The position numbers and the translations under genes were made by a program. From positions 1-34,975 of IMG/VR virus record IMGVR_UViG_3300031963_000501: a stretch of 34,975 nucleotides of DNA; one strand, written 5' to 3'. Below, in pieces: positions 23,265 to 32,182 of this stretch. Within the stretch, counting starts at the first letter, position 1; every line of letters begins with the position of its first letter. The notes under the pieces were generated by a model that was not told the DNA's origin, did not search any database, and was given only the letters and a program-made list of their open reading frames with translations. The DNA comes from a virus.

Positions 23265-23276
23265 TAACTTTGTGGC

Positions 23277-23397
23277 GCAAGGTAGCTCAGTGGGTAGAGC
23301 AACTGGCGACAACGGTTCGAGTCCGTTCCATACGAAAGTATGAGGTGTGTAGGGTGGCAAGCGAGTGTGCCGCGGGTTCGATTCCCGCCCTTGTTAC
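23277..23397 (+). tRNA. tRNA-derived composite with two T-arms and no clear anticodon arm
   Basis: A canonical D-arm (GCTC, loop AGTGGGTA, GAGC; 23285-23300) is followed by two complete T-arms: AACGG-TTCGAGT-CCGTT (23311-23327) and GCGGG-TTCGATT-CCCGC (23372-23388). Between them lies a perfect hairpin CATAC-GAAA-GTATG (23329-23342). The outermost CGCAAGG (23276-23282) pairs mostly with CCTTGTT (23389-23395). So the ends behave like one acceptor stem, while the inner part looks like a second tRNA with its 3' half before its 5' half. No 5-bp/7-base anticodon arm with a T33 is found. A functional tRNA is doubtful; a tRNA-mimic leader, a processed dimer or decayed tRNA genes are the options. Confidence 0.45.
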
Positions 23398-24191: not shown

Positions 24192-24199
24192 TATATTTG
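24192..24199 (+). promoter_or_regulatory. Candidate promoter -7 box for structured RNA E1
   Basis: TATATTTG lies 13 bases before the first base of the E1 hairpin 1. The same spacing separates the TATATTTA box from hairpin 1 in E2, which argues that both RNAs start at the same point, near the foot of hairpin 1. Confidence 0.55.
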
Positions 24200-24202
24200 T
24201 AT

Positions 24203-24304
24203 ATCCTTTGGAACGGACTAGACAACGTCCCAAAGGAGCATGAAACAAACTATTTTTGTTTCACCTTGCCCCAGTAGATGTCTAGCTATTGGGGCATTTT
24301 TTTT
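24203..24304 (+). ncRNA. Structured RNA element E1: three hairpins with kissing loops
   Basis: Hairpin 1 pairs CCTTTG (24205-24210) with CAAAGG (24231-24236), with an inner GGAC/GTCC. Hairpin 2 is GAAACAAA (24242-24249) with TTTGTTTC (24255-24262). Hairpin 3 is the 10-bp stem GCCCCAGTAG (24268-24277) with CTATTGGGGC (24286-24295), followed by eight T. Loop 1 carries CTAGACA (24218-24224), the exact complement of TGTCTAG in loop 3 (24279-24285), so a 7-bp kissing interaction can link hairpin 1 to the terminator. A homologous element, E2, lies at 25563-25656. The element may be a small RNA or a leader attenuator of the methyltransferase gene, which starts 7 bases after the T-run. Confidence 0.78.
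24268..24304 (+). terminator. Rho-independent terminator (hairpin 3 of E1)
   Basis: A ten-base-pair GC-rich stem with one G-T pair, an 8-base loop and eight T (24297-24304). The loop sequence can pair with the loop of hairpin 1, which could affect whether the terminator forms. Confidence 0.85.
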
Positions 24305-24310
24305 ATACTC

Positions 24311-25054
24311 ATGCAAATATTACAGGAAGTTGCTTATTCTAAATTTTGTTTATCTCATTGGGGAAATACTGAAAATGATATAGAAATATATCATGGAGAT
24401 AATAATCTTATATTACCAAAATTGGACATTGATTTTAACAAGGTAATATTTGTTTCCGACCCCCCTTTTAATATTGGTTATCATTACAATAATTATTCTG
24501 ACAAAATGAAAGAAAATGATTATTATAATTGGTTATCAAATATTTTTGGCTCAAACAAGCAAGTTATTATTCATTATCCAGAAAACTTATATAAACACAG
24601 TTATAATATAGGTATGTTTCCTGATAAGGTTGTAAGTTGGGTTTATAATAGCAATACTGGAAAACAACACAGGGATATAGCTTTTTTTGGTTTTAAACCA
24701 GATTTTAAAAAAGTACATCAAGATTATAAAAATCCAACGGATAAAAGAATTGCTAAACGTATTGAGGAGGGTAAATCAGCTAAATTATATGATTGGTGGG
24801 AAATTAACCAAGTCAAAAACGTAAGTGCTGAAAAAACAGAACACCCCTGCCAGATGCCTTTAAAGGTTATGGATAATATAATAGGAATTATTCCTGAGGA
24901 TTATATCATAATTGACCCTTTTATGGGAAGTGGAACAACGGGTTTATCTTGCCTAAGACATAAAAGAAAATTTATAGGCATTGAGATAGATGAAAAATAT
25001 TTTAAAATTGCCAAAGATAGAATAACAAGTAAAATGCTTACTTTAAATTTTTAA
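24311..25054 (+). CDS. DNA adenine methyltransferase (DPPF type)
   Basis: This is a 247-residue protein from the ATG at 24311 (MQILQEVAYSKFCLSHWGNT). A longer frame would start inside the terminator and is rejected. As in beta-class enzymes, the catalytic motif IV SDPPFNIGYHYNNY (about residues 49-62) precedes the AdoMet motif IIDPFMGSGTTGLSC (about 206-220) and FIGIEIDEKYFKIAK. DPPF favours N6-adenine methylation. Its coding region is very AT-rich compared with the flanking replication and structural genes. It is followed after 3 bases by an HNH-AP2 gene, and the pair lies between two copies of the structured RNA. Confidence 0.88.
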   Translation: MQILQEVAYSKFCLSHWGNTENDIEIYHGDNNLILPKLDIDFNKVIFVSDPPFNIGYHYNNYSDKMKENDYYNWLSNIFGSNKQVIIHYPENLYKHSYNIGMFPDKVVSWVYNSNTGKQHRDIAFFGFKPDFKKVHQDYKNPTDKRIAKRIEEGKSAKLYDWWEINQVKNVSAEKTEHPCQMPLKVMDNIIGIIPEDYIIIDPFMGSGTTGLSCLRHKRKFIGIEIDEKYFKIAKDRITSKMLTLNF

Positions 25055-25057
25055 CTT

Positions 25058-25540
25058 ATGAAAGAAATTCAGTTAACGCAAGGAAAAGTCGCGCTGGTAG
25101 ACAATGAGGACTACGATTTTTTAATGCAATGGAAGTGGTGTGTAAAAAATATGCAAGGTAGATTTTATGCATGTAGAGGATGTGTGTTAAATAAAAAAAA
25201 AATATGTATATATATGCATAGGTTAATTACAAATAACAATAATCCTAAAATGCATACCGACCATGTAAATAATAACTCTCTTGATAATCGAAAAAAAAAT
25301 CTTCGTATATGCACAAATAGTCAAAATCAAATGAATACAAAAGGTAAAATAAATAATACAAGTGGGTTCAAAGGGGTTTTTTCTAATAAAACAAATAAAA
25401 AATGGCGTGCTATGATAAAAATAAATTATAAATTAAAACATCTTGGTTATTATATAGACCCCATCGACGCCGCCCGTGCTTACAACGCCGCTGCTTTAAA
25501 GTATCATGGAGAATATGCTCAATTAAATGTTTTGGATTAA
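25058..25540 (+). CDS. HNH endonuclease with AP2 DNA-binding domain (homing type)
   Basis: This 160-residue protein has an N-terminal HNH nuclease region with IYMHRLITNNNNPKMHTDHV and NNSLDNRKKNLRICTNSQNQ (residues about 52-95), carrying the paired histidines and asparagines. The C-terminal half is an AP2-like DNA-binding domain: SGFKGVFSNKTNKKWRAMI and HLGYYIDPIDAARAYNAAA, then KYHGEYAQLN. This architecture is typical of free-standing phage homing endonucleases. It is AT-rich, ends just before the second structured RNA, and may have moved together with the methyltransferase upstream. A restriction partnership with that methylase is less likely because AP2-HNH proteins are usually selfish elements. 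Confidence 0.9.
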   Translation: MKEIQLTQGKVALVDNEDYDFLMQWKWCVKNMQGRFYACRGCVLNKKKICIYMHRLITNNNNPKMHTDHVNNNSLDNRKKNLRICTNSQNQMNTKGKINNTSGFKGVFSNKTNKKWRAMIKINYKLKHLGYYIDPIDAARAYNAAALKYHGEYAQLNVLD

Positions 25541-25559
25541 ATATTATTTCTTATATTTA
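25531..25559 (+). promoter_or_regulatory. Candidate promoter for structured RNA E2
   Basis: TTTG (25531-25534) is followed after 17 bases by TATATTTA (25552-25559), near the Bacteroidetes -33 and -7 consensus. It overlaps the end of the HNH gene. Hairpin 1 of E2 begins 13 bases after the start of the -7 box, as in E1. Confidence 0.6.
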
Positions 25560-25562
25560 CAT

Positions 25563-25656
25563 ATCCTTTGGACGGAGTGGACGCCATTCAAAGGAACTTG
25601 AAACAAATCTTTGTTTCACCCTGCCCGATAGCGTCCACCTATCGGGCGTTTTTTTT
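25563..25656 (+). ncRNA. Structured RNA element E2: three hairpins with kissing loops
   Basis: Hairpin 1 pairs CCTTTG (25565-25570) with CAAAGG (25589-25594). Hairpin 2 pairs GAAACAAA (25600-25607) with TTTGTTTC (25610-25617). Hairpin 3 is a perfect 9-bp stem GCCCGATAG (25623-25631) with CTATCGGGC (25639-25647), followed by T-run 25649-25656. Loop 1 carries GTGGACG (25577-25583), the exact complement of the 7-base loop CGTCCAC of hairpin 3 (25632-25638). Compared with E1, three of the seven kissing pairs differ, and all three differ on both sides so that pairing is kept. The next gene's ATG is 8 bases past the T-run. Confidence 0.8.
25623..25656 (+). terminator. Rho-independent terminator (hairpin 3 of E2)
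   Basis: A perfect nine-base-pair stem, a 7-base loop, one G, then eight T. The loop is fully complementary to the loop of hairpin 1. Confidence 0.87.
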
Positions 25657-25663
25657 ATAACTT

Positions 25664-26677
25664 ATGGAGTTTTCGTTTAACGTTGAATTTGCTAATCGTT
25701 ACGGTATTGACGAAGCCATTATGATAAAATCCTTCCAATTTTGGATAAGGTTAAATAAGGCTAATGGCAATAATTTTAATGATGGGAAGTATTGGACTTA
25801 CAACACGAATAAGTCACTGGCTTTGTATTTTAGCTTTTGGAGCGAAAAGCAAGTGCGAAGGATTATTGAAAGCCTTGTCGATAAAGGTATTTTAATAAAA
25901 GGTAATTATAATAAAATCGGTTACGACAGAACGATTTGGTATGCCTTTGTTAATGAAGATTTATACCTTTCAGATAACTTTCATTTACCAGATAATGGAT
26001 TTGACCAAAAGGGAAATACCATTTTACCAAATGGGCAAATGGATATTTCCAAAAGGGCAAATCGATTTTCACGAACGGGCGAACCTATACCAGTTGCTAA
26101 CCAAGTACTAAATACATTTACTAACTCAGATATTATTGAAAATCTTCCAGATTTTACCGACTTCACAAAAGTTGAAACAAATGTCCAAAGCCCCAAAGTG
26201 AATCCCTTTACCGTAATCAGCCAAGTTGAAAAAGAAAGAAAAGAAAATTTTGCGCCAAAAGAAAAGAAAGAAAAAGCCGAGCCGAAAGCCGAGCGCCAGC
26301 CCTCCCCCACTTACGCCGCCTTTTCCGTGTTTTGCCAAACGTTTGAAAACTTATCAGGCGCTGCGTATCCAACTGACCAAAATGGACATTACATCATGAT
26401 GCCCAAAGATGCAGGGCAAATGGCAAACCTCCTGCGTTACATTGACAAAATAGACAGGCAGGGCGATAGCCTTGAGGCATTGAAGGTGTTTATTCAAGCG
26501 GCATGGAACTTGAATGACAAATGGCTGAGGGCAAATTTTACAATAGCAAACCTTTATTCCCAAGCCTCAAAGATATTTACCGCGTACCAAACCACAAGCC
26601 CAGCGGCAAAGGACAAAGCGTATAATGACAAACTTCAGGAATTGCTTGCAGAACGCATGGCAAAGTTTCAAGATTAA
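25664..26677 (+). CDS. Replication initiator / replisome organiser-like protein
   Basis: This 337-residue protein has an N-terminal winged-helix domain of the phage initiator type: MEFSFNVEFANRYGIDEAIM, SFQFWIRLNKANGNNF, SEKQVRRIIESLVDKGILIK (recognition helix, about 65-84) and NKIGYDRTIWYAF. The middle (about 105-210) is a low-complexity linker whose DNA carries the candidate iterons at 26005-26084. A charged stretch (KEKKEKAEPKAERQ) leads to a helical C-terminal domain (FIQAAWNLNDKWLRANFTIA). The layout recalls lambda O, with the origin inside the gene, and the next gene may be its partner. The start is 8 bases after terminator E2. Confidence 0.72.
   Translation: MEFSFNVEFANRYGIDEAIMIKSFQFWIRLNKANGNNFNDGKYWTYNTNKSLALYFSFWSEKQVRRIIESLVDKGILIKGNYNKIGYDRTIWYAFVNEDLYLSDNFHLPDNGFDQKGNTILPNGQMDISKRANRFSRTGEPIPVANQVLNTFTNSDIIENLPDFTDFTKVETNVQSPKVNPFTVISQVEKERKENFAPKEKKEKAEPKAERQPSPTYAAFSVFCQTFENLSGAAYPTDQNGHYIMMPKDAGQMANLLRYIDKIDRQGDSLEALKVFIQAAWNLNDKWLRANFTIANLYSQASKIFTAYQTTSPAAKDKAYNDKLQELLAERMAKFQD
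26005..26084 (+). repeat. Iteron-like array, candidate replication origin
   Basis: Three copies of a motif near CCAAAAGGGCAAAT start at 26005, 26027 and 26049, exactly 22 bases apart, and a degenerate fourth keeps the GGGC register at 26071. Each is preceded by T-rich sequence. Because 22 is not a multiple of 3, the copies are read in different codon frames (Q-K-G-N, P-N-G-Q, K-R-A-N), so protein selection cannot explain them. They lie inside the presumed initiator gene, as in lambda. Confidence 0.65.
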
Positions 26678-27427: not shown

Positions 27428-27451
27428 GTTTCATAATTTGGTTTTGTTTTG

Positions 27452-27484
27452 GTGGGGTATAGAAATTATACCTCACTTTTTTTT
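27452..27484 (+). terminator. Rho-independent terminator
   Basis: A ten-base-pair stem GTGGGGTATA (27452-27461) with TATACCTCAC (27467-27476), one G-T pair, a 5-base loop and eight T. It ends the replication gene unit. Confidence 0.88.
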
Positions 27485-27493
27485 AATTTATTT

Positions 27494-27545
27494 TTGTAAA
27501 TATTTTTTTATTCAAATAATTATATTTAAATTTACGTATTGAAAA
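27494..27545 (+). promoter_or_regulatory. 52-bp repeated promoter block, copy 1
   Basis: This block aligns without gaps to blocks at 31779 and 33377. It starts TTGTAAATATTTTTT and ends ATTTACGTATTGAAAA. All three copies follow the end of one transcription unit and precede the start of the next, so it is probably a phage early promoter. Copies 1 and 2 are nearly identical. Confidence 0.75.
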
Positions 27546-27563
27546 TAACAAAAGCCAATTATC

Positions 27564-27782
27564 ATGATGACAATGAATGAATTAAAAAACCACTTTGACA
27601 AGGTTCACGAATTAGTAGCCGATGCAGCATTTGTAAAAACTGTTTACCACGCGGTAAAATCTCAGGGTTGCACCGACGAAGAATGGGAGGCAAACAAAAT
27701 GCCAATAGTTGCAAGAATGGCAAATGAGTATCTAAACAAATTAGACCAGGACATTAAAAAGGTTCAAGAATCATGGAGTTAA
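27564..27782 (+). CDS. Small hypothetical early protein
   Basis: This is a 72-residue acidic, helical protein (MMTMNELKNHFDKVHELVAD) with no recognised family. It is the first gene after the copy-1 promoter block. Its 3' end carries one arm of a perfect inverted repeat (27769-27795). Confidence 0.6.
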   Translation: MMTMNELKNHFDKVHELVADAAFVKTVYHAVKSQGCTDEEWEANKMPIVARMANEYLNKLDQDIKKVQESWS

Positions 27783-31736: not shown

Positions 31737-31769
31737 ATGTCCGTGTCTTTCGATGCGGACATTTTTTTT
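31737..31769 (+). terminator. Rho-independent terminator
   Basis: ATGTCCG (31737-31743) pairs with CGGACAT (31756-31762), with a 12-base loop and eight T. It closes the nucleotide-metabolism unit just before promoter block copy 2. Confidence 0.82.
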
Positions 31770-31778
31770 ATTTTATTA

Positions 31779-31830
31779 TTGTAAATATTTTTTTATTCAA
31801 ATAAATAATATTAAATTTACGTATTGAAAA
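31779..31830 (+). promoter_or_regulatory. 52-bp repeated promoter block, copy 2
   Basis: This block is nearly identical to copy 1 at 27494, aligning without gaps over 52 bases; differences cluster near the middle. It follows a terminator and precedes the gene at 31847. The shared end ATTTACGTATTGAAA probably holds the -7 box and transcription start. Confidence 0.75.
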
Positions 31831-31846
31831 AACAAAAACAAACCAA

Positions 31847-32182
31847 ATGACAACTTTAGCAAAAACAACAGAAAACAACGCAAAAGTAAAAGCACTTAAA
31901 AAAATAGCTGAGACTAAATGGACTGGAACAACTATTCACACAAATTTAGATGCTTGTTTAACAGGAATAAATTTAGATAGTACAAATTCAGGATGGTATA
32001 AACCATCGGCATCAAGAATAGATGGATTAACTGGTATTTTTATGATAAATCAAGATGGTTCAATTTTTTGCGAAGCAAGAGTTATAAAAATAAGCGAAAA
32101 AGAATATAAAATAGAATATATGACAATGGCAGGATGGAACGAATTTGAAAATCTTTTTCATCAATTTATGGATGAAAACTAA
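31847..32182 (+). CDS. Hypothetical protein
   Basis: This 111-residue protein is Thr/Lys/Asn-rich at the start (MTTLAKTTENNAKVKALKKI) and has a mixed C-terminus with aromatics (YKIEYMTMAGWNEFENLFHQ). No family is recognised. It is the only gene directly after promoter block 2 before a weak hairpin near 32200. Confidence 0.58.
   Translation: MTTLAKTTENNAKVKALKKIAETKWTGTTIHTNLDACLTGINLDSTNSGWYKPSASRIDGLTGIFMINQDGSIFCEARVIKISEKEYKIEYMTMAGWNEFENLFHQFMDEN

Follow-up and report, generated by a model that had tools for sequence, protein, structure and literature searches.

In the ColE1 RNA I/RNA II pair, 7-nt loops pair completely with each other, and in 2010 Arbiol and colleagues reportedly described T4-type phages in which mobile cassettes of promoter plus stem-loop lie between shuffled modules. 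In SR4/bsrG, terminator loops take part in the RNA-RNA contact (PMC7430163). The lambdoid phage HK022 makes the put RNA, an early-promoter-proximal transcript of about 70 nt with two hairpins and two copies per genome, which binds the zinc-binding domain of the β′ subunit of RNA polymerase and makes the polymerase ignore distant terminators (PMC9378689). In the prophage Gifsy-1, one promoter gives rise both to a short terminated RNA, IsrK, and, by partial read-through, to an mRNA (PMC4825925).

Here we describe a phage RNA element that resembles each of these in part and is present in two copies, E1 and E2, in the stretch of DNA analysed (the window), namely the whole of the IMG/VR virus record IMGVR_UViG_3300031963_000501 (34,975 nt). 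The put RNA, similar in size, is the nearest functional idea, given its two early copies and its link to terminator read-through; however, it lacks a terminator and works on distant downstream terminators via RNA polymerase (PMC9378689), whereas the element ends in a terminator of its own, and so does not qualify as a put RNA, and has a variable kissing pair. HK022 also stands outside the lineage that carries the element. IsrK offers the nearest layout, a short terminated RNA plus a read-through mRNA, but it controls translation in trans in one Salmonella prophage, and its published abstract notes no internal kissing with a terminator loop (PMC4825925). Contacts of the ColE1 and SR4/bsrG kind join two RNAs, whereas the element has both loops in one RNA, with each copy matching itself. 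Mobility is common to the element and the T4-type cassettes, from which it differs in its three hairpins and conserved loop-loop helix, in the phages concerned and in the type of promoter. Classical attenuators and riboswitch terminators have the same succession of promoter, structured leader, intrinsic terminator and gene, but the element lacks their conserved antiterminator and conserves few unpaired bases that could form a ligand pocket. For kissing of a terminator loop within a single leader, we found nothing equivalent in the literature searched, which excluded most subscription papers.

Two elements in the early region of a phage

The left half of the window holds minus-strand genes, including those for the terminase and the tape measure, while plus-strand genes occupy the right half: first one for a methyltransferase, then, after E1, those for a DNA methyltransferase and an HNH endonuclease and, after E2, that for a replication initiation protein. 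Directly behind E1 lies the gene for a DNA N6/N4 methyltransferase (24311..25054; Pfam PF01555, E-value 1.3e-25), followed by that for an HNH (AP2-like) endonuclease, a cargo gene (25058..25540; phrog_99, E-value 7.6e-41), and directly behind E2 the replication initiation protein gene (25664..26677; phrog_11233, E-value 2.6e-32), all on the plus strand. The interval between the elements (24311-25540; slot 1 in related loci) is a variable cargo region, which depending on the phage codes for methyltransferases, HNH nucleases, ParB-like proteins or others, and is A+T-rich in the window (31% G+C). Since this cargo differs between phages, the elements flank an exchange hotspot just 5′ of the replication gene.

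Farther upstream, at 23276-23396, we observed a tRNA-like gene, which recurs in a related locus (L028, 2967-3088) after a tRNA of normal length. It is 121-122 nt long, scores 40-45 bits with Rfam and has about 50 additional bases between the D arm and the T arm, including a second T-arm-like stretch. ARAGORN makes no call for it; interruption, fusion or decay of a tRNA could explain its form.

Both elements lie on the plus strand. E1 follows a promoter −7 element of the Bacteroidota type TAnnTTTG (TATATTTG, 24192..24199), identified by sequence as an instance of the box common to all 69 contexts of the family. Hairpin 1 (24204..24237) carries the kissing sequence CTAGACA in its loop (24218..24224); hairpin 2 (24241..24263) comes next, and hairpin 3 (24267..24296), the stem-loop of an intrinsic terminator, displays the kissing partner TGTCTAG in its loop (24279..24285) and is followed by a U-tract of eight T (24297..24304). 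E2 repeats this arrangement with the −7 element TATATTTA (25552..25559; the same common box), hairpin 1 (25564..25595) with the kissing sequence GTGGACG (25577..25583), hairpin 2 (25599..25618), hairpin 3, again an intrinsic terminator stem-loop (25622..25648), with the partner CGTCCAC (25632..25638), and a U-tract of eight T (25649..25656). The U-tracts are read off the sequence, while the hairpins rest on folding together with covariation of their stems in the family, and the kissing segments on the sequence together with family covariation.

The plan common to E1 and E2 had been proposed in an earlier, sequence-only reading, and every feature that it named (−7 box, three hairpins, eight T) is present. 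The loop sequences are exactly complementary in both copies, as it claimed, and the three of seven kissing pairs that differ between them (pairs 1, 3 and 7) are each compensated on the other side. Its figure of 7-8 nt between terminator and ATG has to be corrected: the last T is separated from the start codon by 6 nt in E1 (ATG at 24311) and by 7 nt in E2 (ATG at 25664). Folding energies compared with dinucleotide shuffles give z-scores of −6.05 (E1) and −4.92 (E2), with no shuffle as good, and random 8-nt loops of the same composition contain a complement of at least 7 nt in only about 0.06% of trials.

A structured RNA family with a kissing helix

Nearly 200 viral loci were gathered by means of three DNA patterns (for hairpins 1 and 2), two scans for neighbouring proteins and two later patterns. 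The first regular-expression scan, which specified hairpins 1 and 2 only, returned new loop alleles, each of them self-complementary, while the second demanded loop complementarity and provided the seeds. As seeds chosen in this way carry a risk of circularity, the covariance model (20 seeds) was restricted to the three stems, without any loop-loop (pseudoknot) information, and run on all loci. Members score 61-101 bits and non-members at most 32 bits, and every member is encoded on the same strand as the early operon. Antisense matches of up to 32 bits were rejected as palindromes of the stems, not family members, and the hairpin 2 pattern on its own was discarded for its many false matches in coding sequence. 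After removal of duplicates there remain 59 distinct elements, each about 95 nt long, in about 85 IMG/VR contigs, with a maximum of two copies in any locus examined. Rfam 15 contains no match to the element above the gathering threshold, whether searched with the window, with the E1-E2 region at E-values up to 10 or with the corresponding loci of four relatives; permissive E-values add only sub-threshold noise. The earlier assertion that no described family has this plan holds against Rfam. We assign the element to none of the known systems compared above; it constitutes a new RNA family, broadly of the leader/attenuator kind.

The 7-bp helix between loop 1 and loop 3 was assessed in the model-fitted alignment A5, in which fitting to the stems biases stem counts toward stems but leaves the loop-loop counts unaffected. 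All 412 scorable cells of this helix are paired, every one of them Watson-Crick, with both-side changes at each of the seven pairs (125 cells in total) and a covariation score of 0.870 vs 0.206 when shuffled; sliding the partner by 1-3 columns lowers pairing to 24-42%. The proposal of homologous structured RNAs with a covarying kissing pair is thereby upheld on independent data. It was to be abandoned if no further homologues with compensated loop changes existed, and the family has 17 loop alleles, each complementary to its own terminator loop (in the allele GTGCAGC the aligner placed one loop 3 base in a stem column, but the actual sequence is exactly complementary). Between loops of different alleles a 7-base complement occurs in fewer than 1% of cross-pairs. 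The next pair inward (columns 25 and 80) is Watson-Crick in only 3 of the 59 elements; pairing therefore stops at the loop edges, which is what one expects of a kissing complex with both stems preserved, but not of strand displacement. Free duplex energies of the kissing helix are about −7 to −11 kcal/mol, and in folds of prefixes ending just past loop 3, before the 3′ arm of the terminator exists, the helix already belongs to the minimum-energy structure for 10 of the 17 alleles; since pseudoknots are beyond the reach of such folds, in which hairpin 1 is opened, they show only that the pairing is favourable. We also looked for avoidance of shared alleles between the two copies of a genome, and rejected it as not significant: none of 20 distinct pairs shares an allele, yet slot-wise shuffles give zero with a probability of 0.47.

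The stems themselves show both-side changes in A5, at 9 of the 12 pairs of hairpin 1, at 4 of the 8 pairs of hairpin 2 and at every one of the 10 pairs of hairpin 3. Their cores contain 132 G-U cells vs 8 A-C cells, and this commonness of G-U and rarity of A-C points to selection on the plus-strand RNA. By contrast with these 132 cells, G-U is wholly absent from the kissing helix (0 of 412; columns 18-24 with 81-87), an observation that is unexplained. Hairpin 3 with its U-tract meets the criterion of an intrinsic terminator, a G+C-rich stem followed by a U-tract. Outside the U-tract only one unpaired column is invariant (column 64, A), while T occupies column 40 in 54 of 59; with so few conserved unpaired bases, the 59 elements lack the conserved unpaired ligand pocket expected of a riboswitch. 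Nor does the 5′ arm of hairpin 3 have a consistent upstream partner in these elements, that is, a conserved antiterminator. Together, the two absences make a classical attenuator or a riboswitch less likely. Hairpin 2 is nearly invariant in one subclass, with GACAATATCCGCATTGTT in 36 viral stretches; many elements of slot 2 are of this kind, among them that at L039 5735-5837. Such conservation exceeds the needs of pairing and possibly marks a protein-binding site.

Distribution and genomic setting

All carriers belong to a single phage lineage, whose proteins share 30-98% identity with those of the window. BLAST with E1, E2 and another family member as queries detected no copy in 50,697 phage records, the sole match among phages, of E1 in a Geobacillus phage, being dismissed as chance-level, and E1 had no BLAST match in plasmids. 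One hairpin 1/2 pattern found 85 loci in GTDB genomes, and none of the 80 searched with the model exceeded 24 bits, a weak negative; equally weak is the absence from a sample of 395 Bacteroidota genomes, where only 10 candidates per genome were scored. The Riemerella phage RAP44, the nearest isolate by terminase, and part of a Flavobacterium phage yielded no copy either (best score 18.7 bits). The nearest terminases are those of Riemerella phages (46% identity), and this similarity together with the promoter type suggests, by inference from sequence, that the hosts are probably Bacteroidota.

The order of −7 box, hairpin 1, hairpin 2, terminator and start codon is constant in all elements. A TAnnTTTR box, mostly TATATTTG, TATATTTA, TATCTTTG or TATCTTTA, stands 3-5 nt 5′ of hairpin 1 in 69 of 69 distinct contexts, the upstream DNA of which falls into 32 dissimilar groups. 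No conserved −33 element was found in these contexts, and promoter strength is for that reason uncertain. The distance from U-tract to ATG is mostly 4-13 nt, and 21-26 nt in a few cases. The downstream ORFs belong to many families (several replication initiators, ParB-like proteins, HNH nucleases, methyltransferases and unknowns), which apart from the window's own genes were named by sequence resemblance without a search. One allele precedes several unrelated genes, thus meeting the criterion of a T4-type cassette (a unit before different shuffled genes), and one gene carries different alleles.

Other terminators of these loci served as controls. Most are separated from the following ORF by about 70-110 nt, often with a TAnnTTTG box in the interval, and an ORF within 15 nt is seen for only 13%; these controls, drawn from a small number of recurrent terminators, lack full independence. 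An example is the terminator at 27451-27477, whose gene begins at 27564. At two such recurrent junctions (27451-27564 and 31737-31847) the next ORF follows after about 80 nt, and in many relatives a TAnnTTTG-like promoter is located between. The ordinary junction is thus terminator, promoter, gene, and the junction with an element is promoter, terminator, gene. All 69 contexts satisfy the broad definition of an attenuator, a leader with a terminator between promoter and gene. With the terminator so placed and too little space for a further promoter, polymerase has to reach the downstream gene by read-through, either from the element's own promoter or from farther upstream, and the element is accordingly most likely a leader controlling read-through.

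Candidate functions and their implications

The comparisons above demonstrate a conserved structure with a kissing helix, under selection on the plus strand, in the order promoter-terminator-ATG and used before many unrelated genes. On this basis, we give a probability of roughly 60% to the reading that the element is a mobile promoter-leader cassette, namely a kissing-loop attenuator, in a lineage probably infecting Bacteroidota; conditional termination is untested and its trigger is unknown. Transcription would begin just 5′ of hairpin 1, and the nascent RNA of about 95 nt is predicted to fold hairpins 1 and 2. The 7-8 nt loop of the emerging terminator hairpin may then be captured by the 7-nt loop of hairpin 1, with both stems staying intact. 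If formed during the termination decision, this contact would alter its outcome, whether by helping or by hindering termination, and would set how often the polymerase halts at the U-tract and how often it continues into the gene about 10 nt on. The genes so controlled would include those for replication initiators, ParB-like proteins, methyltransferases, HNH nucleases and others. Given the lack of a conserved alternative antiterminator stem, this would not be a classical two-state attenuator. Read-through of the leader into the next gene and modulation of termination by the kissing contact are both inferred, in the absence of expression or termination data.

A strong terminator by itself would also fit a small-RNA gene, and to that extent counts against the leader reading. 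The element might instead be an independent small RNA of the phage, transcribed from its own promoter to its own terminator and acting in trans on RNAs or proteins of host or phage; the kissing contact would then shape or protect it, and the nearby gene would reflect mere compaction. It is indeed a complete promoter-RNA-terminator unit, highly conserved in structure across phages whose proteins have diverged as described, and placed independently of the gene; but an ORF 4-13 nt past the U-tract in nearly all contexts, unlike most terminators of these phages, would then be without a promoter of its own, and few unpaired bases are conserved to serve as a seed. We regard this as unlikely, though it is not excluded: where the sequence-only reading had listed a small RNA, a switch and a leader side by side, the anatomy favours a leader or attenuator, with function inferred in the absence of transcript data. 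Somewhat more doubtful is a passive promoter-plus-terminator cassette that insulates modules and rides on recombination junctions as in T4-type phages, with kissing merely strengthening the terminator; the same allele before unrelated genes and the variable cargo between E1 and E2 agree with it, but neither the exact 7-bp loop complementarity in 17 alleles nor the terminator between promoter and gene is explained.

An improbable alternative is a 5′-UTR stabiliser or an element of translation control, with the kissing pseudoknot shielding the 5′ end of an mRNA and the U-rich tract as a landing site for ribosomes: only a few nt do separate hairpin 1 from the probable transcription start, and the ATG is preceded by an AT-rich stretch, yet hairpin 3 and the long U-tract form a textbook intrinsic terminator in essentially all copies. 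We can give next to no credence to loop complementarity as chance or as a DNA-level inverted repeat, for which one could cite only that the loop pairs are all Watson-Crick without G-U; chance is excluded by 59 distinct elements with 17 alleles, and a DNA-level repeat is at odds with the strand-specific tolerance of G-U in the stems. As a speculative extension of the kissing-loop attenuator, which we hold only as a long shot, the leader hairpin might capture its own terminator loop while the short product also acts in trans on leaders of the same allele, so that alleles are specificity types. If true, alleles would prevent cross-talk between copies in one phage and between competing phages, amounting to allele-specific autoregulation or superinfection control built of RNA alone.

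The element adds a structured RNA family with unusually clean covariation to phages whose transcription control is scarcely known. It has the appearance of an RNA switch not described before, one that could determine whether the gene behind it is transcribed, and its copies are candidates for marking a checkpoint between the early and the replication genes of these phages. If kissing sets termination, it would represent an attenuator that needs neither a competing antiterminator nor a ligand, being built from interchangeable 7-base alleles, and it would be useful for orthogonal gene control.
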